64,000 nt of DNA, taken from Rhizobium gallicum bv. gallicum R602sp (GTDB taxonomy: Bacteria; Pseudomonadota; Alphaproteobacteria; Rhizobiales; Rhizobiaceae). The first letter of the stretch is position 1. Every line of letters begins with the position of its first letter. The position numbers and the translations under genes are program-made. This document shows, piece by piece, positions 54,914-64,000 of the stretch. The notes under the pieces are model-generated. The model was not told the DNA's origin. It was given only the letters and a program-made list of their open reading frames with translations, and searched no databases. The stretch spans positions 62,001 to 126,000 of the forward strand of contig NZ_CP006879.1 of assembly GCF_000816845.1 (NCBI RefSeq). The letters are read 5' to 3'.

Positions 54914-55724
54914 GGCGATGTCACGTTGTTTCACGAACGCGCGGACAAGGGCCTTGCCGGTGAACTCAGGCAACTGCGCCGGTCACGGCTTTCCACTGCG
55001 CCATGGCGCGGAGCCGATGAATGTAGGTGGATAGAGCCGAGTGTTTCTGGCGGGGCGGGACGAAAAGGGTCTCGGACGGCTGAGAAGACTGAGATAAAAC
55101 GTTGCAAGCCGCCGGCAGATCGAAATCCCCTGCATTATCCGTTCTCGTTTGCGAAGTGGCACGTGAGAATTCTCAGCGCGATTGTTCAGGCCTTTGTGCG
55201 ATCGATGTTCGATAGCGGGCATCACGTCCCGTCTTGCCGCCCCATATGAGCGCAGCTTGTCGGTGACGATGCGCGTCGGCACCCGTCCTTGCTTCTTCAG
55301 CAGTCTGACCAGTAAACCGCTTGGCAGCTTTGGTGTCGCGGCGGGCCTGAACGATCTCGTCGAGAACATAGCCCTCCTGATCAACGGGGCGCCAAAGCCA
55401 ATGTTTTCGGCCGCCGATGGAAATCACGACCTCGTCCAGATGCCAGACATCTTTTCGCGACGGCTTCTTCCTACGCAACTGCTTGGCGTAAGCGGCCCCG
55501 AATTTGCGACCCCATCGCCGTATCGCTTCGTAAGACACAACAATGCCGCGCTCTAACAACATTTCCTCGACCAACCTGAGGCTTAAAGGAAACCGGAAAT
55601 ATAGCCAGACCGCATGCGCGATGATCTGCGGTGGAAAGCGGTGGTTCTTGTAGCTGATGGACGATGCGTTCATCTCAACCGAATTATCCGCCAACCGTTA
55701 AGGTGCCGACAACGTGACATCGCC
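54914..55724 (-). mobile_element. IS6-family insertion sequence with intact ends and target duplication
   Basis: This 811-bp element is bounded by perfect 16-bp terminal inverted repeats, GGCGATGTCACGTTGT at 54914-54929 and its reverse complement at 55709-55724. It is flanked by a perfect 8-bp direct repeat GCTTGACC (54906-54913 and 55725-55732). Size, GG-start ends and 8-bp duplication are characteristic of IS6. The single transposase gene on the minus strand carries frameshifts. Confidence 0.9.
54966..55694 (-). pseudogene. IS6-family transposase, frameshifted
   Basis: The first frame (start 55694) encodes the HTH and DDE core: KNHRFPPQIIAHAVWLYFRF, LVEEMLLERGIVVSYEAIRR, then WHLDEVVISIGGRKHWLWR. 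Near 55310 the frame shifts and the next segment LLVRLLKKQGRVPTRIVTDK, LRSYGAARRDVMPAIEH, AENSHVPLRKRERIMQG continues. A last shift leads to LSTYIHRLRAMAQWKAVTGA and a stop at 54966-54968. All the pieces of a DDE transposase of about 240 residues are present, but at least two indels prevent a continuous product. Confidence 0.85.
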
Positions 55725-55732
55725 GCTTGACC
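55725..55732. repeat. Right target-site duplication of the IS6 element
   Basis: GCTTGACC, the second copy of the 8-bp duplication, about 150 bp upstream of the monooxygenase operon start. Confidence 0.85.
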
Positions 55733-55831
55733 TGTTCTGACAGCTTTCCGGCATCCAATTTTGCATCTTGGGCGCGGCCGCTTTTTTCACGCAACGCCGT
55801 CGAAAGAGAATGTCATTTCTTATAATGAAGT

Positions 55832-55858
55832 TTGTCTACTGATTTTATAGACTATAAT
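55832..55858 (+). promoter_or_regulatory. Possible promoter and dyad of the monooxygenase operon
   Basis: TTGTCT (55832-55837) and TATAAT (55853-55858) are separated by 15 bp, about 30 bp upstream of the first gene. A short inverted repeat, GTCTA-N9-TAGAC (55834-55852), lies between them and could be an operator. The spacing is shorter than ideal, so this is tentative. Confidence 0.4.
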
Positions 55859-55886
55859 TTGCAACCAGCGAGCGGATCGTGGTGTC

Positions 55887-56879
55887 ATGACCTACCTCCT
55901 CAGCCTTCTCGACAAAAGCCCGATCGAACAGGGTCTCACCGCTGTAGATGCATTGCGGGCGACGGTGAAGATTGCCGCCCGGGCCGAGGAACTCGGTTAT
56001 CACCGCTTCTGGGTCGCGGAACATCACAACATGTCCAACCTGGCGAGTTCAGCGCCGGAGGCGCTGATAGCATATCTTCTCGCTAGGACATCGAGAATAC
56101 GGGTCGGCTCCGGCGGCGTCATGCTGCAGCACTACAGCGCCTACAAGGTCGCCGAAACCTTCAATCTTCTGGCATCGCTTGCCCCGGGACGCGTCGATCT
56201 CGGTGTCGGCAAGGCGCCGGGCGGATTTCCGCTCGCAACGCGCGCCCTGCAGCTTGCCGTCGATCCGGCGAGAAAGCCGGATTTTGCAAGCCAGCTTTCC
56301 GATCTCAACACCTATCTTGCCGCCGATCCCAGTTACGACGGTGCGCAGGCGACTCCTTTCCCGCCGAGGGCTCCAGAGCGCTTCTTGCTCGGCGCCAGCG
56401 TCGAAAGCGCCGAACTCGCGGCCGAGAAGGGCTGGGACCTTGTCTTCGCCGGCCACCTGAATGGCGATCCCGACAATCTGCGCCAGACCTTCGAAGCCTA
56501 TGAACGGGCCTCGGGCGGCAAGCGCCCCCTGCTGGCTCTCGCAGCTTTCGCCGCCGAAAGCGAGGACTATGCCCGCGAGCGTGTCGGAGACTTGCACATC
56601 GTCAAGGTGTTCCTGCCGAACGGCCAGACCGTCAATGTCGGCAGCGAGGAGCAGGCGGCCGAATTCGCCCGGCAGGCCGGTGTCACGGATTACCGGATCG
56701 AGGAGAAGGTGCCGAACGTGCTGCACGGCACCGCAAAACAGATCCGCAAGCAACTGGACGAGCTCCACCACCGCTACGGCGTCAAGGAGTTCGTGCTCGA
56801 CACGCCGGCGCTTTCAACCGCTGACCGCCTGGCCTCCATCGAGCTGCTCGCCGCCGAGCGCCTTTCCCTCGTCGCCTGA
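55887..56879 (+). CDS. Luciferase-like flavin monooxygenase (LLM class, MsnO8-type)
   Basis: This 330-residue bacterial-luciferase-fold protein starts MTYLLSLLDKSPIEQGLTAV. Family landmarks are EELGYHRFWVAEHHNMSNLA, the RIRVGSGGVMLQHYSAYKVA strand, and APGRVDLGVGKAPGG. It uses reduced flavin and O2 for C-S, C-N or similar oxygenation. It is first in a co-directional operon with a second monooxygenase, an amidohydrolase, an acetyltransferase and an amino-acid transporter. An oxidative step on an S- or N-substituted amino acid is inferred. Confidence 0.88.
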   Translation: MTYLLSLLDKSPIEQGLTAVDALRATVKIAARAEELGYHRFWVAEHHNMSNLASSAPEALIAYLLARTSRIRVGSGGVMLQHYSAYKVAETFNLLASLAPGRVDLGVGKAPGGFPLATRALQLAVDPARKPDFASQLSDLNTYLAADPSYDGAQATPFPPRAPERFLLGASVESAELAAEKGWDLVFAGHLNGDPDNLRQTFEAYERASGGKRPLLALAAFAAESEDYARERVGDLHIVKVFLPNGQTVNVGSEEQAAEFARQAGVTDYRIEEKVPNVLHGTAKQIRKQLDELHHRYGVKEFVLDTPALSTADRLASIELLAAERLSLVA

Positions 56880-56903
56880 CCGTTTCCAAAAAGGATTGAT
56901 CCC

Positions 56904-58253
56904 ATGGCTCAAAAACACGTCACGTTCGGCATCATGCTGCAGGGTCCCGGCGGTCACATGAATGCCTGGAAGCATCCAAGCGGACCGGCCGATGCCAGCG
57001 TCAATTTCGACTTCTTCGTGACGACGGCGCGCAAGGCCGAGGCGGCGGGCATCGCTTTCGCCTTCGTCGCCGACGGGCTCTACATCAACGAGCAGTCGAT
57101 CCCGCATTTCCTCAACCGGTTTGAGCCGATCGCCATTCTCTCGGCGCTGGCGGCCTCCACCTCGAAGATCGGCCTCGTCGGTACGGTTTCGACTTCCTAC
57201 AGCGATCCCTTCACCATTGCCCGCCAGTTTGCCTCGATCGATCTCATCAGCAGCGGCAGGGCAGGGTGGAATGCGGTGACCTCGCCGCTCGAGGGGTCGG
57301 GACGCAATTACAATCGCGAGCATCCCGAGCACGAACTGCGCTACGAGATCGCCGAGGACTACATCGATGCGATCAAGGGCCTGTGGGATTCCTGGGACGA
57401 CGACGCTTTCGTGCGCAATCGCGAGACCGGCGTTTTTGTCGACAAGGCGAAGATGCATCGCCTCAACCATAAGGGCCGTTTTTTCCGCATCGAGGGGCCG
57501 CTCAATATCGGCCGCTCAAAGCAGGGCCAGCCCGTCGTCTTCCAGGCGGGCGCTTCGGATTCCGGCATCAGGCTTGCCGGCAAGCATGCCGACGCCGTCT
57601 TCACCAATGGCGGGCCGTTGGAAGAGGCGCAAGCCTTCTACCGTCAGCTCAAGGATAGCGTCATTGCTCATGGACGGCCTGCGGCGGAAGTCGGCGTCTA
57701 TCCGGGCATCGGCCCGATCGTGGGGAAGACGTCCGAGGAAGCGGAAGCCAAGTACGAGACGATCCGCAATCTCGTCACCATCGAGGAGGCGCTCCTCTAT
57801 CTCGGCCGTTTCTTTGATCACCATGATTTCAGCGTCTACCCGCTCGATGAGGCGTTCCCTGACATTGGCGATATCGGCAGGAACAATTTCCGCGCCACCA
57901 CCGACCGCATCAAAAGGACAGCGCGCGAGAAGGGGCTGACGCTTCGGCAGGTCGCGCTCGATTCCGCGACGCCGCGCACCGCCTTCATCGGCACGGCGGA
58001 GCATATTGCCGATGAGATCATCCGCTGGGTGGATCATGGCGCCGCCGACGGCTTCATTCTCGGCTTCCCCGTCATCGCCGAAGGCTTTGCGGATATCGCC
58101 GAGCACGTTCTGCCGATCCTGACCGAGCGCGGCTATTTCGATCCGGTCCTGAAGGGCGAGACGCTGCGCGACCATCTGGGCCTGCCCTTCAGGGAAAGCC
58201 GGTATGCGGCGGGCGCCGATCAGCTCGAGCAAGGAAGGGCTGTCGGCGCCTGA
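56904..58253 (+). CDS. FMNH2-dependent monooxygenase, NtaA/SnaA/DszA family
   Basis: This 449-residue luciferase-fold enzyme has the NtaA/DszA signatures: LQGPGGHMNAWKHPSG at the start, FAFVADGLYINEQSI, STSYSDPFTIARQFASIDLI, then SSGRAGWNAVTSPLEGSGRN. The end is VLPILTERGYFDPVLKGETL then RDHLGLPF. Relatives act on nitrilotriacetate, dibenzothiophene sulfone and S-substituted N-acetylcysteine compounds (YtnJ/CmoJ, YxeK). The gene follows the first monooxygenase by 24 bp. A partner flavin reductase is not present in the window. Confidence 0.93.
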   Translation: MAQKHVTFGIMLQGPGGHMNAWKHPSGPADASVNFDFFVTTARKAEAAGIAFAFVADGLYINEQSIPHFLNRFEPIAILSALAASTSKIGLVGTVSTSYSDPFTIARQFASIDLISSGRAGWNAVTSPLEGSGRNYNREHPEHELRYEIAEDYIDAIKGLWDSWDDDAFVRNRETGVFVDKAKMHRLNHKGRFFRIEGPLNIGRSKQGQPVVFQAGASDSGIRLAGKHADAVFTNGGPLEEAQAFYRQLKDSVIAHGRPAAEVGVYPGIGPIVGKTSEEAEAKYETIRNLVTIEEALLYLGRFFDHHDFSVYPLDEAFPDIGDIGRNNFRATTDRIKRTAREKGLTLRQVALDSATPRTAFIGTAEHIADEIIRWVDHGAADGFILGFPVIAEGFADIAEHVLPILTERGYFDPVLKGETLRDHLGLPFRESRYAAGADQLEQGRAVGA

Positions 58254-58270
58254 GGCGCCGGCGAATCGCC

Positions 58271-59470
58271 ATGGACACCATTGCTCAGAACCCGCGCAGC
58301 AACGATCCAGTCGAAAAGGGCATCGCCGCGTATCTCGACGAGATCATCGCGCTTCGCCACGATCTGCACCAATATCCGGAGCTTGCCTTTCAGGAGCTCA
58401 GGACCAGCAAGCTCGTGGCATCCCGCCTTTCCTCCTGGGGCTATGAGGTGGCGACGGGCGTTGCCGGCACCGGCATCGTTGCCACCCTCAGACGTGGTGA
58501 GGGCAGGAAGCGGATCGGCATCCGGGCCGACATGGACGCGCTGCCGATCGAGGAGGCGACCGACCTTTCCTATGCCAGCAGCAATCCCGGCGTCATGCAT
58601 GCCTGCGGCCATGACGGTCATACCGCGATCCTGCTGGCGGCCGCCCGCTATCTCGCCGAAAACGGCAATTTCAGCGGCACGCTCAGGCTGATCTTCCAGC
58701 CCGCCGAGGAGATCGGCGCCGGCGCCCGCAAGATGATTGCCGAAGGCCTGTTCGAACGGTTTCCCGTCGATGCGGTCTTCGGTTTGCACAACTGGCCGGG
58801 TGTACCGACGGGGCAATTCGGTTTCGTCACCGGCCCGGCCATGGCCTCGGTCGATCAGGCGGTGATCAAAATCGTCGGCAAGGGCGGCCACGGCGCCGAG
58901 CCGCACCGCGCCGTCGATCCGGTGCTGGCTTCCGCCTCCTTCATCACCGCGCTGCAAAGCGTCGTCTCGCGCAATGTCGATCCGCAGGATATGGCGGTCG
59001 CCACCGTTGGCTCGATCCATGCCGGCTCCGCCTCGAATGTCATACCCGAGAGCGTGGAAATGAAACTCACCATGCGGGCCTTCAGCGAGGAGGTTCGCCA
59101 GCTGCTGCAGGAGCGTATTCCAGCCCTTGCCCGTGCCCAGGCCGAAAGCTTCGGCGCGGCGGCGGATGTGAACTACCGGCTTGGCTTTCCGGCGCTGGTC
59201 AATCACGCCAAAGAGACGGCATTTGCCCGTGATGTCGCCTATGACGCACTCGGCCCCGCGGCTATCGAGAGGGATTTCCGGCCGAGAACCGCGAGCGAGG
59301 ATTTTGCCTTCCTGCTGCAGGCCAATCCCGGCAGCTACCTTTTCGTCGGCAATGGCGACAGCGCCCCTCTCCACAGCGCCCACTACGATTTCAACGACGC
59401 GATCATCGCGCCGGCCGCCCGCTACTGGGTGCGGCTCGCCGAAACCTTCCTCACTGATGACAACGGGTGA
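58271..59470 (+). CDS. M20-family amidohydrolase (N-acyl-amino-acid deacylase type)
   Basis: This 399-residue M20D peptidase/amidohydrolase shows IRADMDALPIEEATDLSYAS and HACGHDGHTAILLAAARYLA (metal ligands), FQPAEEIGAGARKMI (catalytic Glu), GLHNWPGVPTGQFG, and a dimerisation domain with GKGGHGAEPHRAVDPVL. The C-terminal RTASEDFAFLLQANPGSYLF is conserved. Family members hydrolyse hippurate, IAA conjugates or N-acetyl-amino acids. Beside a GNAT enzyme and an NtaA-type monooxygenase, a deacetylase of N-acetyl-S-substituted cysteine (SndA/YtnL-like) is a good hypothesis. Confidence 0.93.
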   Translation: MDTIAQNPRSNDPVEKGIAAYLDEIIALRHDLHQYPELAFQELRTSKLVASRLSSWGYEVATGVAGTGIVATLRRGEGRKRIGIRADMDALPIEEATDLSYASSNPGVMHACGHDGHTAILLAAARYLAENGNFSGTLRLIFQPAEEIGAGARKMIAEGLFERFPVDAVFGLHNWPGVPTGQFGFVTGPAMASVDQAVIKIVGKGGHGAEPHRAVDPVLASASFITALQSVVSRNVDPQDMAVATVGSIHAGSASNVIPESVEMKLTMRAFSEEVRQLLQERIPALARAQAESFGAAADVNYRLGFPALVNHAKETAFARDVAYDALGPAAIERDFRPRTASEDFAFLLQANPGSYLFVGNGDSAPLHSAHYDFNDAIIAPAARYWVRLAETFLTDDNG

Positions 59471-59478
59471 CGAACGAT

Positions 59479-60030
59479 ATGAGCGATACGTTTCTCTATA
59501 CGAGCCCCCTCGATCCCCGCGCCAAGCCGCTGATCGATGAATTGATCCACGAATATGACAGCCGCTACGGCACCTATTTCAATGCCGAAGGCGCCGCAGC
59601 CGAATTGAACCGCTATCCCCCCGAAGCTTTCGCGCCGCCTCACGGCAATTTTCTCCTGTTGATCCGCAATGGCGAAACCATCGGCGGCGGCGCCTTCAAG
59701 CATTCCGACGATCGCACCGCCGAGTTCAAACGCATCTGGACACGCACGGACCTGCGCCGCCAGGGCCTTGCCCGCAAGGTGCTGGTGGAACTGGAGGCTC
59801 AGGCGGCCCGCCAGGGATACACCCGCATCTATCTGACGACCGGTTTCCGTCAGCCCGAGGCCGTCGGCCTCTATCTGAATTATGGCTATACCGCTCTCTT
59901 CGACACATCAGTTGATCCCGAGATCTACAAGAGCCTGCCTTTCGAGAAGGATATCACCCATCTCGTTCCACCGGTCTTCGGCACCGAGGCGGCCGAACCG
60001 CGCCTGCGCGTGGCCGGAGCAAATCTCTGA
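59479..60030 (+). CDS. GNAT-family N-acetyltransferase
   Basis: This protein of about 183 residues starts MSDTFLYTSPLDPRAKPLID. The acetyl-CoA core is FKRIWTRTDLRRQGLARKVL (motif A, RRQGLA), followed by EAQAARQGYTRIYLTTGFRQ and EAVGLYLNYGYTAL (motif B). A GTG at 59467, overlapping the amidohydrolase stop, would add four residues. In the Bacillus ytm/yxe operons a GNAT (SnaA/SnaB) acetylates the S-substituted cysteine before oxidation; this gene occupies the equivalent place in gene content. Confidence 0.9.
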   Translation: MSDTFLYTSPLDPRAKPLIDELIHEYDSRYGTYFNAEGAAAELNRYPPEAFAPPHGNFLLLIRNGETIGGGAFKHSDDRTAEFKRIWTRTDLRRQGLARKVLVELEAQAARQGYTRIYLTTGFRQPEAVGLYLNYGYTALFDTSVDPEIYKSLPFEKDITHLVPPVFGTEAAEPRLRVAGANL

Positions 60031-60065
60031 AGGCGACAAGACGATAATCATAAAAGGGAAGCACA

Positions 60066-61841
60066 ATGGCACTGACGACGGATTTCGCGGGCATTGAGCC
60101 AGGCAGCAGAACGGCAGAACCGAAGCAGGACTATTCCCGTTACCGCATCGTGCCGGCGCGCCATCCCGAGCGGCTCGCAGGCACGATATTCGCGGCCGTC
60201 GTCATCATTGCCGTGCTCTATTCCACCTTCACCAATCCGCGCTGGGGTTGGAGCGTCTTTGCCGAATGGTTCTTTGCCGAACCAGTGCTCGTCGGCCTCG
60301 GCAGGACATTGCTCCTGACTGCTCTTGCCGCCATATCGGGCTCCATCCTCGGAACAGCCCTGGCGCTTGCCCGCGTCTCCAAGTCGCCGCTGCTATCAGG
60401 CCTTTCCTGGGGTTATATCTGGCTGCTGCGCTCGATCCCTATGATCGTGCTGCTCCTGATATTGAACAATCTCGGCTATCTCTATGAAACGATCAGGATC
60501 GGCATCCCGTTCACCGATAGGGTCTTGTTCGATTACCCCACGGTGCAGCTGCTGACGCCCTTCGCCGCTGCCTACCTCGGCCTGACGCTCAACCAGTCGG
60601 CCTTCTTCGCCGAGATCGTCCGCGGCGGCATTCTGTCGGTGGATCATGGGCAGCTGGAGGCCGCAGCCGCACTCGGTCTGCCGCGCCGCCGCCAGGCCTT
60701 CCGCATCGTGCTGCCGCAGGCCATGCGCTCCATCCTGCCGACCGGTTTCAACGAGCTCATCGGATTGGCGAAAAGCACCTCCGTCGTCTATGTGCTGGCG
60801 CTGCCAGAGCTCTTCTATACGGTCCAGGTGATCTACCGCCGCAATCTCGAAGTCATTCCGCTGCTGATGGTCGCAACGGTCTGGTATCTGATCATCATGA
60901 CGGTGCTGTCGGTCGCCCAGCACTATATCGAGCGCTATTTCTCCAAGGGCGCCGTGCGCAATCCGACACCGCTGCCCTTTCAGGCGTTTTTCGAGCGCTT
61001 CCGCCGGCCGCTCCCTGTGCTGGAGACGGCGACCGATAGAATCCGCAAAATCGGCTTCCATGATGCGACGGCTATGCGGCCAGGTGGTGCGGTGCGCATC
61101 CACGGCATCACGAAAAGTTTCGGCTCGCTGAAGGTACTCGACGATGTCGAGCTCAACCTGCCGGCCGGCAGCGTGACCGCCATTCTTGGCCCCTCCGGTT
61201 CGGGAAAGTCGACGCTGCTGCGGTCGATCAATCACCTGGAGCGTGTCGACGAAGGCTTCATCTCCGTCGACGGCGATTTCGTCGGCTATAGCAGGAAGGG
61301 CGACATGCTCCATGAGCTCAAGGAGAAGGATATCCTGAAACGCCGCGCCGATATCGGCATGGTCTTCCAGAGCTTCAATCTCTTCCCGCATCTGACCGTG
61401 CTCGAAAACCTCATCGAAGCTCCGATCGAGGTCCGTGGCGTCGGCCGCGAGGAAGCCGTGCTGCTGGCGCAGGAACTTCTTGCCCGTATCGGCCTTAGCG
61501 ACAAGGTCAATGCCTACCCGCGCCAGCTCTCCGGCGGCCAGCAGCAGCGGGTCGCCATCGCTCGGGCGCTGGCGCTCCGCCCCAAGGTTCTGCTCTTTGA
61601 CGAGCCGACTTCCGCACTCGATCCGGAACTCGTCGGCGAGGTCCTCGACGTCATCAAGGAACTGGCCCGCACCGGCACGACGCTCGTCATCGTCACCCAT
61701 GAAATCGGTTTTGCCCGCGAAGTCGCCGACACCGTCGTCTTCATGGAGAGCGGCAGCATTCTGGAGGCCGGTCCGCCGGCCAGGATCTTCACGCAAGCGG
61801 AGCATCCTCGAACGCGCGAATTCCTTGCCAAGGTTCTCTAG
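60066..61841 (+). CDS. Fused amino-acid ABC transporter permease-ATPase
   Basis: This 591-residue protein joins a polar-amino-acid permease to its ATPase. Residues about 40-300 contain the HisM/GlnP-type membrane domain (LRSIPMIVLLLILNNLGYLY; EAA loop QLEAAAALGLPRRRQAFRIV). After a linker, residues about 345-590 are the ATPase: GPSGSGKSTLLRSIN, VFQSFNLFPHLTVLENLIEA, LSGGQQQRVAIARALALRPK, LLFDEPTSALDPELVG and VTHEIGFAREVADTV. In most organisms these are separate genes. Binding proteins follow immediately downstream. It probably imports a cysteine- or methionine-like compound. Confidence 0.95.
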   Translation: MALTTDFAGIEPGSRTAEPKQDYSRYRIVPARHPERLAGTIFAAVVIIAVLYSTFTNPRWGWSVFAEWFFAEPVLVGLGRTLLLTALAAISGSILGTALALARVSKSPLLSGLSWGYIWLLRSIPMIVLLLILNNLGYLYETIRIGIPFTDRVLFDYPTVQLLTPFAAAYLGLTLNQSAFFAEIVRGGILSVDHGQLEAAAALGLPRRRQAFRIVLPQAMRSILPTGFNELIGLAKSTSVVYVLALPELFYTVQVIYRRNLEVIPLLMVATVWYLIIMTVLSVAQHYIERYFSKGAVRNPTPLPFQAFFERFRRPLPVLETATDRIRKIGFHDATAMRPGGAVRIHGITKSFGSLKVLDDVELNLPAGSVTAILGPSGSGKSTLLRSINHLERVDEGFISVDGDFVGYSRKGDMLHELKEKDILKRRADIGMVFQSFNLFPHLTVLENLIEAPIEVRGVGREEAVLLAQELLARIGLSDKVNAYPRQLSGGQQQRVAIARALALRPKVLLFDEPTSALDPELVGEVLDVIKELARTGTTLVIVTHEIGFAREVADTVVFMESGSILEAGPPARIFTQAEHPRTREFLAKVL

Positions 61842-61933
61842 CGCCGGACAGCGCTGGTGAAATGCCGGGCCGCGACGGGCTGCTCCGGTCGAACGACAAC
61901 AACCACAATCTTAAGATGAATTGGAGAAGGGGC

Positions 61934-62878
61934 ATGGCATTTACAGATAGAATAAGGCTTCTCATAGCGGGAGCCGTCACCATTGGCGCGATCGGTTTCG
62001 GTTCCGCTCAGGCGCAGCAGAAGTTCGATCTCAGCCCCGAACAGCCGAACCGGCTGCGGGTGGAAAAGAACGAGAAGCGTATCGCCGAAATCAAGGACTT
62101 CATGTTCGTCGAGAACGGTGTCTTCACCGTCGGCATCAGCTCCAGCGGTAATCTGCCGCTGCACGACTATGCCTCCGATTCCAAAACGGTCATCGGTTAT
62201 GACGTCGATCTCGCCCAGGCGATTGCCGACAGTCTTGGCCTGAAGCTCAACCTCGTTTCCGTTGCCTGGGCCGATTGGCCGCTGGGGCTCACCTCCGGCA
62301 AGTTCGACGCGGTGATCTCGAATGTGACCGTCACGGAAGAACGCAAGGAGAAATTCGATTTCTCGACCTACCGCAAGGATGAGCTGGGCTTCTACGTCAG
62401 GGCCGACAATCCGATCACGGCGATCAAGGAGCCGAAAGATATTGCCGGCCTGAAGGTCATCACCGATGCCGGCACCAACCAGGAGAAGATCCTCCTGGAA
62501 TGGGATCGGCAGAATGTCGCGGCCGGTCTCAAGCCGATCGAGGTGCAGTATTACGATGACGATGCGGTCAAGGATCTCGCCGTTCAGTCCGGCAGAGCCG
62601 ATGCCGTCTTCAGCGTCAATGCCACGCAGGCCTATGCGGCGGGCATCAACGGCAAGACGAAGCTCGTCGGCACCGTCAGCGGCGGCTGGCCGATCACGGC
62701 CGAGATCGCAGTCACCACACGCAAGGGCAGCGGCCTGGCGGCGCCCTTGACCGATGTCGTCAACGACCTGATTGCCAGCGGTGCGTACAAGAAGATCCTC
62801 GACACCTGGAATCTCGGCCCCGAGGCGATCGACAAGGCCCAGACCAACCCGCCCGGCCTGCCGAAGAGCGGTTCGTAA
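61934..62878 (+). CDS. Amino-acid ABC transporter solute-binding protein (family 3), copy 1
   Basis: This 314-residue periplasmic protein has a signal peptide (MAFTDRIRLLIAGAVTIGAI, cleavage near SAQA). The PBPb/family-3 core is clear: FTVGISSSGNLPLHDYASDS, IGYDVDLAQAIADSLGLKLN, LTSGKFDAVISNVTVTEERK and DFSTYRKDELGFYV. It ends TNPPGLPKSGS. ATG 61934 follows GGAGAAGGGG; a frame from 61862 would add an unlikely leader. It pairs with the fused transporter just upstream. Confidence 0.94.
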   Translation: MAFTDRIRLLIAGAVTIGAIGFGSAQAQQKFDLSPEQPNRLRVEKNEKRIAEIKDFMFVENGVFTVGISSSGNLPLHDYASDSKTVIGYDVDLAQAIADSLGLKLNLVSVAWADWPLGLTSGKFDAVISNVTVTEERKEKFDFSTYRKDELGFYVRADNPITAIKEPKDIAGLKVITDAGTNQEKILLEWDRQNVAAGLKPIEVQYYDDDAVKDLAVQSGRADAVFSVNATQAYAAGINGKTKLVGTVSGGWPITAEIAVTTRKGSGLAAPLTDVVNDLIASGAYKKILDTWNLGPEAIDKAQTNPPGLPKSGS

Positions 62879-62886
62879 TGTCTATG

Positions 62887-62918
62887 GGGACGGACGGCCG
62901 TTCGAGCCGCTCCGTCCC
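62887..62918 (+). terminator. Stem-loop between the two binding-protein genes
   Basis: GGGACGGA pairs with TCCGTCCC and an inner CGGC pairs with GCCG, with one bulged base. The hairpin lies 8 bp after the first binding-protein stop. There is no T-run; differential mRNA stability or attenuation within the operon is the likely role. Confidence 0.55.
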
Positions 62919-62950
62919 TGACTTTCACTGCAAACGGAGACATATCGCAC

Positions 62951-63889
62951 GTGGCGACCTTTCTTGATATCCGCACCTTTTTCTTCGCGGCGCTGACGGC
63001 AGCCTTGACGGGCTTCGGGACGGTTCATGCGGCCGATGATTTCGACCTGAGCCCGCAGCAGCCGGGCAGGCTTCATGCAGCCAGGAAGGATGCGGCGATC
63101 GCTGCGATCCCTAAGGATTTCAAGTTCGTTACGCCAGGTAAATTCACCATCGCCGTCAGCCCCGGCGGCCCGCCGCTCGCGACCTATGCCACCGACGCCA
63201 AAACCGTGGTGGGCGCGGATCCCGATTATGCCTATGCCATCGCCGACAGCCTCGGCCTGACGCTGGAGATCGTCCCGGTCGCCTGGATCGACTGGCCGCT
63301 CGGCCTCACATCGGGCAAATATGATGCCGTCATCTCCAATGTCGGCGTTACCGAGCAGCGCAAGGAGAAGTTCGATTTTTCCACCTATCGTCAGGGCCTG
63401 CACGGTTTCTTCGTGAAAGCCGATAGTCCCATCACCTCGATCAAGGAGCCGAAGGACGCGGCGGGCCTGAGGATCATTGTCGGCGCCGGCACCAATCAGG
63501 AGCGTATCCTCGTAAAATGGAGCGACGACGACGTCGCCGCAGGCCTGAAGCCGATCGAACTGCAGTATTACGACGACGAGGCGGCGAGCCTTCTCGCGCT
63601 GCGTTCCGGTCGGGCCGATGTCATCGTCCAGCCGCACGCACAGCTCGTCTTCATTGCGGCACGCGACAAGAACATCAAGCGGGTGGGCACGCTGAGCGCC
63701 GGCTGGCCGGATCGATCGGACGTCGCGATCGCCACCCGCAAGGGAAGCGGACTCGCCGATGCGCTGACCGTTGCCACCAATGGTCTGATCAAGGACGGCA
63801 CCTATGCGGGGATACTCGATCATTGGCATCTTTCCGAAGAAGCCTTGCCCGTATCCGAGACCAACCCGCCCGGGCTGCCGAAATATTGA
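62951..63889 (+). CDS. Amino-acid ABC transporter solute-binding protein (family 3), copy 2
   Basis: This 312-residue paralogue of the preceding gene starts at GTG 62951 with a signal peptide (FFFAALTAALTGFGTVHA). The mature proteins share long stretches: FDLSPQQPGRL here versus FDLSPEQPNRL, both with DWPLGLTSGK-DAVISN, EKFDFSTYR, EPKD-AGL and TNPPGLPK. The ligand-contact region differs (SPGGPPLATYATDAKTVVGA versus SSSGNLPLHDYASDSKTVIG), so the two may bind different substrates for one transporter, like the TcyJ/TcyK pair in Bacillus. Confidence 0.93.
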   Translation: MATFLDIRTFFFAALTAALTGFGTVHAADDFDLSPQQPGRLHAARKDAAIAAIPKDFKFVTPGKFTIAVSPGGPPLATYATDAKTVVGADPDYAYAIADSLGLTLEIVPVAWIDWPLGLTSGKYDAVISNVGVTEQRKEKFDFSTYRQGLHGFFVKADSPITSIKEPKDAAGLRIIVGAGTNQERILVKWSDDDVAAGLKPIELQYYDDEAASLLALRSGRADVIVQPHAQLVFIAARDKNIKRVGTLSAGWPDRSDVAIATRKGSGLADALTVATNGLIKDGTYAGILDHWHLSEEALPVSETNPPGLPKY

Positions 63890-63906
63890 TCATCGGAAAG
63901 CACGAC

Positions 63907-64000
63907 ATGAGCGGCCGCAATATATCCATCAGCCATATCGGCTTCCTCACCCCCGGCAATTATCCCGACGATGATCCCTTGTCGGGATTGGAGCAGACGC
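63907..64000 (+). CDS. Luciferase-like monooxygenase, 5' part only
   Basis: A new frame opens at ATG 63907, 15 bp after the second binding-protein stop, and runs off the window. The 31 visible residues, MSGRNISISHIGFLTPGNYP then DDDPLSGLEQT, resemble the N-terminal strand of LLM-class flavin oxidoreductases (IGFLTPGNYPDDDP). If confirmed, this is the third such enzyme in the operon. The rest lies outside the window. Confidence 0.6.
   Translation, partial: MSGRNISISHIGFLTPGNYPDDDPLSGLEQT

Follow-up and report, generated by a model that had tools for sequence, protein, structure and literature searches.

Which compound is taken up and broken down by an operon that joins luciferase-like monooxygenases to a polar amino-acid importer, an acetyltransferase and an amidohydrolase? 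The question is raised by ten co-directional, closely spaced genes on the forward strand of Rhizobium gallicum bv. gallicum R602sp, which span positions 55887 to about 66276 of the window analysed here, a 64-kb stretch corresponding to C3:62001-126000 of the 7.31 Mb, four-contig genome. The operon extends past the window end into a flanking stretch, L009 (C3:116001-136000; window coordinate = L009 + 54000). The initial annotation had proposed a salvage operon for S-substituted cysteines that follows the logic of both the ytm/ytn and the yxe operons of Bacillus subtilis. Our results point to a CmoO/CmoJ-type system that would import S-alkylcysteine and recover its sulfur, a reading to which we assign a probability of roughly 0.8. 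The locus would represent a variant of the cmo operon, in which the lead pair of monooxygenases falls in the CmoO and CmoJ clades and the remaining enzymes are without a clear match.

The first gene (55887-56879) encodes an MsnO8-family luciferase-like monooxygenase (TIGR03558, 334 bits, cut-off 167) that is CmoO-like (YtmO-like), and is followed after 24 bases by a gene (56904-58253) for an NtaA/DmoA-family monooxygenase (TIGR03860, 496 bits, cut-off 280) that is CmoJ-like (YtnJ-like). Next come an M20 amidohydrolase (58271-59470; TIGR01891, 362 bits, cut-off 154), a GNAT acetyltransferase (59467-60030; PF00583), a fused polar amino-acid ATP-binding cassette (ABC) permease-ATPase (60066-61841; PF00528 and PF00005) and two family-3 solute-binding proteins (61862-62878 and 62951-63889; PF00497 in each). 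A third luciferase-like monooxygenase of 344 residues (LLM3) begins at 63907 and is cut by the window end at 64000; the initial annotation had seen its start, and the remainder, to about 64941, was found outside the window. A DsbA-fold protein and, as the last operon gene, an MsuE flavin mononucleotide (FMN) reductase (TIGR03566, 253 bits, cut-off 212) follow on the same strand beyond the window. Profile searches thus bear out the single, tightly packed unit with all the families that had been named for it.

Bacillus inaquosorum (L016) was used as a stand-in for B. subtilis, its YtnJ being 96% identical to the B. subtilis YtnJ in the PDB. The 55887 product, left unassigned by the initial annotation, shares 43-44% identity with YtmO of Bacillus ytm/ytn loci, and the 56904 product shares 54-55% with YtnJ versus 44% with YxeK. 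In a tree of 35 NtaA rows, comprising proteins of at least 90 bits and more than 300 residues from chosen loci (weaker or shorter ones were dropped), the window protein, YtnJ, the operon relatives and a few others formed a set of 20 rows with support of 100/99, and both YxeK and four other NtaA proteins of the R602sp genome fell outside it. The MsnO8 tree (21 rows) placed the window protein with YtmO in a 17-row set, again with 100/99, and left four other Bacillus MsnO8 proteins outside; in both trees there are some unresolved forks and a small number of long rows. Among solved sequences, the 56904 product matched YtnJ (1yw1) with 534 bits, as against 256 for a BdsA/DszA-type enzyme, 194 for ethylenediaminetetraacetate (EDTA) monooxygenase and 190 for dimethyl-sulfide monooxygenase; the top match was 3sdo, titled nitrilotriacetate monooxygenase, with 642 bits. 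By these comparisons the 56904 product is a predicted CmoJ orthologue, distinct from YxeK, which acts on S-(2-succino)cysteine, and the product of the adjoining gene at 55887 is a predicted CmoO orthologue. With the two lead enzymes inside the CmoO and CmoJ clades and YxeK outside, the closest known system is the CmoO/CmoJ salvage operon and not yxe/scm; the original proposal is supported by the sequence, its match being to ytm/ytn rather than to yxe.

For B. subtilis, the accessible portions of two papers describe sulfoxidation and C-S cleavage by CmoO and CmoJ together with the general route (PMC10863075), and the content of the ytm/ytn operon and the use of S-methylcysteine (PMC6323116). 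A corresponding pathway in R. gallicum would begin with uptake, one or both binding proteins delivering S-alkylcysteine or a compound closely derived from it to the fused importer, after which the GNAT enzyme would acetylate the amino group. The CmoO-like enzyme would then oxidise the thioether of N-acetyl-S-alkylcysteine to a sulfoxide, and the CmoJ-like enzyme would cleave the C-S bond of this sulfoxide to give an aldehyde and N-acetylcysteine sulfenic acid. The latter could be reduced by a thiol, perhaps glutathione aided by the DsbA-fold protein, before the M20 enzyme strips off the acetyl group to yield cysteine. Two-component FMNH2 enzymes need an FMN reductase, and the presence of MsuE within the operon fits this requirement, MsuE being the predicted source of FMNH2. 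The sequence itself shows which genes are present, how they are ordered and conserved, and in which clades the two monooxygenases fall; all substrate assignments in Rhizobium, the roles of GNAT, M20, the DsbA-fold protein and LLM3, and sulfur control are predictions.

The operon is real, duplicated and conserved. At C4:199841-209552 the first nine genes are present again, with copy-to-copy protein identities of 80-93% (NtaA 93, M20 93, ABC protein 90, GNAT 88, binding protein 1 88, MsnO8 86, and LLM3, binding protein 2 and DsbA 80 each) and with MsuE genes nearby at C4:190382 and C4:212829. The R. gallicum plasmid pRgalIE4872c carries all ten genes in the same order, at 96.7% DNA identity to window positions 55700-64000. 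Across 240 genomes of the same class, NtaA matches (E <= 1e-110) were found in three, including the window genome, and MsnO8 matches (E 1e-40) in 55. In 199 genomes of the family, CmoJ-like genes (E 1e-150) occurred in 11 and CmoO-like genes (E 1e-75) in the identical 11, a coincidence with a chance of about 3e-18 under independent draws, to be read with thresholds of our own choosing and related genomes (8 genera of 109) in mind. The paired genes had match coordinates 25-132 bases apart in 13 of 14 cases, the last pair being separated by 7.6 kb. Fifteen loci were examined, namely the two own copies and 13 others, and the core order MsnO8-NtaA-M20-GNAT-ABC-binding protein was kept in 11 of them. 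The exceptions are L076, where the genes are scattered; L077, with just MsnO8-NtaA-GNAT in reach; L078, with the NtaA gene alone; and L075 (8801-15159; genome G312, a small genome with a 1.87 Mb contig), which is without an adjacent M20 gene and has an FMN reductase at the M20 position. The shared order in pRgalIE4872c, the second copy and the recurrence of the six-gene core in other genera indicate that the operon is more than a chance arrangement.

Several observations weigh against the CmoO/CmoJ assignment. For the acetyl-handling enzymes, the comparison with the Bacillus proteins gave no clear orthologues of SnaA or SndA/YtnL. BLAST comparison of the GNAT protein with SnaA gave E values of 9.4 (B. 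inaquosorum) and 0.31 (B. velezensis), some operon GNATs reached SnaA-type proteins only at an E value of about 1e-4, a weak similarity, and a profile match to SnaA with 94% probability and 18% identity may reflect merely the common GNAT fold. The M20 tree has 25 rows, of which several are very long; in it, 11 operon proteins and four other M20 proteins of R602sp formed one group (15 rows, 97/98), and YtnL, YxeP and the Paenibacillus and Pantoea proteins formed a separate one (4 rows, 94/99). On the importer side, the binding proteins and the ATPase stayed short of the equivalog thresholds, with 94 of 312 bits for the cystine binding protein model and 304 of 406 for TcyN, and the imported compound is therefore not assignable by model. 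The operon contains neither the glutaredoxin-like CmoI nor RibR, other parts of the genome not having been searched for them, and in genome G097, which has a CmoJ-like gene, the surrounding 20 kb contain no CmoO-like gene.

The GNAT gene follows the M20 gene in 11 of the 15 loci, and its Pantoea counterpart is 50% identical; no equivalog model scored over its cut-off for this protein. The M20 protein carries an HACGHD motif, is 42% identical to the M20 protein of the B. inaquosorum ytm/ytn locus and finds its best solved match in YxeP (1ysj, 263 bits). The initial annotation had held that GNAT and M20 proteins in clades with unrelated substrates would speak against it; the four rhizobial M20 paralogues pass no equivalog cut-off, so that no substrate can be read from the M20 group. 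According to the available part of PMC12757645, N-acetylcysteine is deacetylated by each of YtnL, ScmP and YhaA. We propose that the M20 enzyme is a putative N-acetylcysteine deacetylase and the GNAT enzyme a putative N-acetyltransferase acting on S-alkylcysteine. The ATPase part of the fused ABC protein is 49-50% identical to TcyN-type ATPases of Bacillus ytm loci, and the two binding proteins of the B. inaquosorum ytm/ytn locus show about 25-27% identity.

LLM3 has no NCBIfam model over cut-off (best TIGR04027, 97 of 413 bits), and it is missing from L066, L069 and L073, that is from three of the 11 in-order operons, and from the K102 plasmid operon, which places it outside the core as an accessory. 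The DsbA-fold protein contains no cysteines and, among solved sequences, comes closest to 2-hydroxychromene-2-carboxylate isomerases and glutathione S-transferase (GST) kappa; this resemblance and the lack of cysteines do not support it as a CmoI equivalent. It may have a glutathione-linked role. CmoI and RibR are themselves counted as accessory genes of the CmoO/CmoJ operon.

A yxe/scm-type pathway for S-(2-succino)cysteine would share the logic of acetylation, cleavage and deacetylation, and the 44% identity of the NtaA protein to YxeK and the YxeP match of the M20 protein speak in its favour. It is nevertheless improbable, given that the clade of the window protein excludes YxeK, that the yxe locus as listed in the accessible part of PMC9706529 is without an MsnO8-type enzyme, and that no such match was found around YxeK in the Bacillus genome used. 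Moreover, two other NtaA proteins of R602sp, at C4:259489 and C4:2453k, are nearer to YxeK (54% each), as might be expected if the tasks are divided and S-(2-succino)cysteine is handled by other loci of the genome. Close to the gene at C4:259489 are genes for an amino-acid ATPase and for an amino-acid permease that scores best with a cystine permease model (112 bits, cut-off 300). The stretch C4:259489-264966 (L015) also holds a 448-residue protein without a model; it lies next to an IS110 transposase and is a candidate S-(2-succino)cysteine cluster.

Equally improbable is a sulfite-releasing desulfurisation of sulfides, sulfones or sulfonates of the Dsz, Sfn, Ssu or Msu type, to which the amino-acid genes would be incidental. 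The MsuE reductase inside the operon and the taurine transporter genes that follow it in some relatives would suit such a role, whereas the models for SfnG, RutA and alkanesulfonate monooxygenase gave the NtaA protein just 55-95 bits, far under their cut-offs, the DszA-type chain scored less than half as high as YtnJ, and importer, GNAT and M20 accompany the monooxygenase pair in 11 of the 15 loci. Oxidation of an aminopolycarboxylate, nitrilotriacetate or EDTA, is suggested by the family name and by 3sdo as the closest solved sequence; it is very unlikely, since the solved EDTA monooxygenase lies far below YtnJ in score, the GNAT and the CmoO-like partner would be left unexplained by nitrilotriacetate oxidation, and the title of 3sdo is an annotation behind which we saw no assay. 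Catabolism of ectoine or N-acetyl-diaminobutyrate with a DoeB2 deacetylase and an Ehu-like importer, named by the top equivalogs for the M20 protein (DoeB2, 354 bits) and the ATPase (EhuA, 305 bits), is scarcely credible, as both scores are under their cut-offs (550 and 345), YtnL itself reaches 326 bits for DoeB2 and ectoine catabolism is not known to need a luciferase-type pair.

A salvage system of the CmoO/CmoJ type may also have its own control element. A 40-base block (55815-55854, forward strand) is common to six aligned upstream regions and contains a core dyad, TCTA-N9-TAGA (55835-55851, forward strand), 35 bases from the first gene; a strict search found the block in four of the six named plasmid stretches, the two without it being L091 and L093. 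With one mismatch or less, the core occurs a single time in the 64-kb window (mean of shuffles 0.08). Exact copies of the core stand at four genomic sites (six rows on both strands), with a reversed-pattern control giving none forward and one reverse: 5' of both operon copies, 98 bases 5' of a frame (C4:192877) for a binding protein of peptide type, and at C4:1532480, 40 bases before an MsuE gene starting at C4:1532439. The pattern was derived from three of these sites, so that C4:1532480 is the sole independent one. Among 12 other loci, the dyad with at most one mismatch starts 50-59 bases before the first gene in five, of which L066, L067 and L068 belong to the block alignment and L072 and L073 lie outside it; a copy with one mismatch lies at -141 in L074 and one with two mismatches at -47 in L069, and the remaining five loci show at least three mismatches. 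The dyad is a candidate operator or promoter part, and its presence also before the second copy and before an msuE gene is a hint of a small regulon for sulfur.

Around the two copies, an AraC regulator gene lies beyond the window after a gap of about 0.7 kb behind MsuE, and transposase-like frames on the reverse strand (54983-55694), apparently broken as judged by eye, lie just 5' of the window operon. On C4, a peptide-type ABC transporter (C4:192877-198120, L012) stands between an msuE gene and the second copy; the best model of its binding protein is TIGR04028 (266 of 468 bits), which, like TIGR04027, the best model of LLM3, is named after neighbouring KPN loci. The region C4:170000-265000 (L011-L015) is rich in organosulfur-type genes: it holds 10 of the genome's 24 luciferase-family genes, together with two MsuE reductases, ABC transporters for peptides and amino acids, and a protein that scores best with the SfnB model (92 of 431 bits).

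Plants offer one potential source of substrate. Common bean stores S-methylcysteine as a gamma-glutamyl dipeptide, according to the available part of PMC6572574, in whose main text, to the same extent, 'root', 'nodule' and 'rhizob' do not occur; a plant-derived substrate is a possibility. The idea of common-bean host specificity was rejected: when the four leading genes of the C4 copy served as query, matches appeared in strains from clover, lentil, pea, faba bean and Lotus (best 10 of 139), and the MsnO8 gene alone matched Mimosa and Indigofera strains among the matches listed (60 of 248 records), with Pantoea making up 74 of the 248. The presence of the genes in clover, lentil and pea strains and in Pantoea argues against bean specificity and makes a bean-only role unlikely. 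Linkage to symbiosis was likewise rejected. The window replicon has nifH at C3:256905 and pRgalIE4872c also carries it, and of six named operon plasmids that we picked ourselves nifH scored over its cut-off in one and was partial in a second; on C4 the match was weak and far under the cut-off. The main text of PMC8581550, on R. phaseoli in root exudates, contains in its available part no monooxygenase, luciferase or sulfur, no title on a rhizobial cmo operon appeared among the matches listed from the open-access collection searched, and no paper joining S-methylcysteine, sulfur source and 'rhizobi' was found in that collection.

More tentatively, the operon could be a remodelled cmo pathway with which root-associated bacteria use plant S-alkylcysteines, such as S-methylcysteine and its gamma-glutamyl peptide, under a sulfur regulon of their own, LLM3 and the cysteine-free GST-kappa-like protein extending the Bacillus pathway by a further oxidative dealkylation and by a glutathione-dependent treatment of the sulfenic acid. 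A ChaC-like gamma-glutamylcyclotransferase gene 3' of the operon in three of the six named rhizobial plasmid stretches and the peptide-type ABC gene sharing the dyad would fit this unlikely extension. On the R. ruizarguesonis, R. phaseoli and R. etli plasmids (L044, L091 and L093), the operon is followed by a ChaC-like gene and taurine transporter genes.

The CmoO/CmoJ route is called widely distributed among soil bacteria in the accessible text of PMC10863075, and a complete, duplicated version would now be placed in nodule bacteria, with one copy on a nifH-bearing replicon. S-alkylcysteines replace S-(2-succino)cysteine as the likely substrate class, proteins other than those of Bacillus are suggested for the acetyl-handling and redox steps, and a defined upstream element is available for testing. 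As database tables label the genes mostly by broad family, the annotation of many rhizobial plasmids may be improved.

Of the systems compared, the B. subtilis yxe/scm locus shares the acetyltransferase, an NtaA-family enzyme, M20 and an importer, and differs in the clade of YxeK and in the lack of a CmoO-like match around it (stretch L079). The operon on plasmid p3_CQ10 of Pantoea alfalfae, annotated by family names, has the same core functions, with identities of 54% for MsnO8, 57% for NtaA, 50% for GNAT, 38% for M20, 55% for the permease and 68% for the ATPase, and two binding proteins; it differs in gene order, in its separate permease and ATPase, in an M20 protein that groups with YtnL/YxeP on a long branch, and in having no LLM3, DsbA or MsuE within the annotated stretch. 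The Bacillus ytm/ytn loci, for which B. tequilensis and B. velezensis agree with B. inaquosorum (M20 was not matched in the B. velezensis stretch), share monooxygenases of the same clades, M20, GNAT, a polar amino-acid ABC importer and two binding proteins. In contrast, the rhizobial permease and ATPase are fused, the M20 protein is of a rhizobial group and the GNAT weakly SnaA-like, and in place of CmoI and RibR the operon has a cysteine-free DsbA-fold protein and MsuE; LLM3 is an extra gene. If an identical gene set is strictly required, the R. gallicum operon is not a member of ytm/ytn, but it most likely works like the CmoO/CmoJ system of Bacillus.

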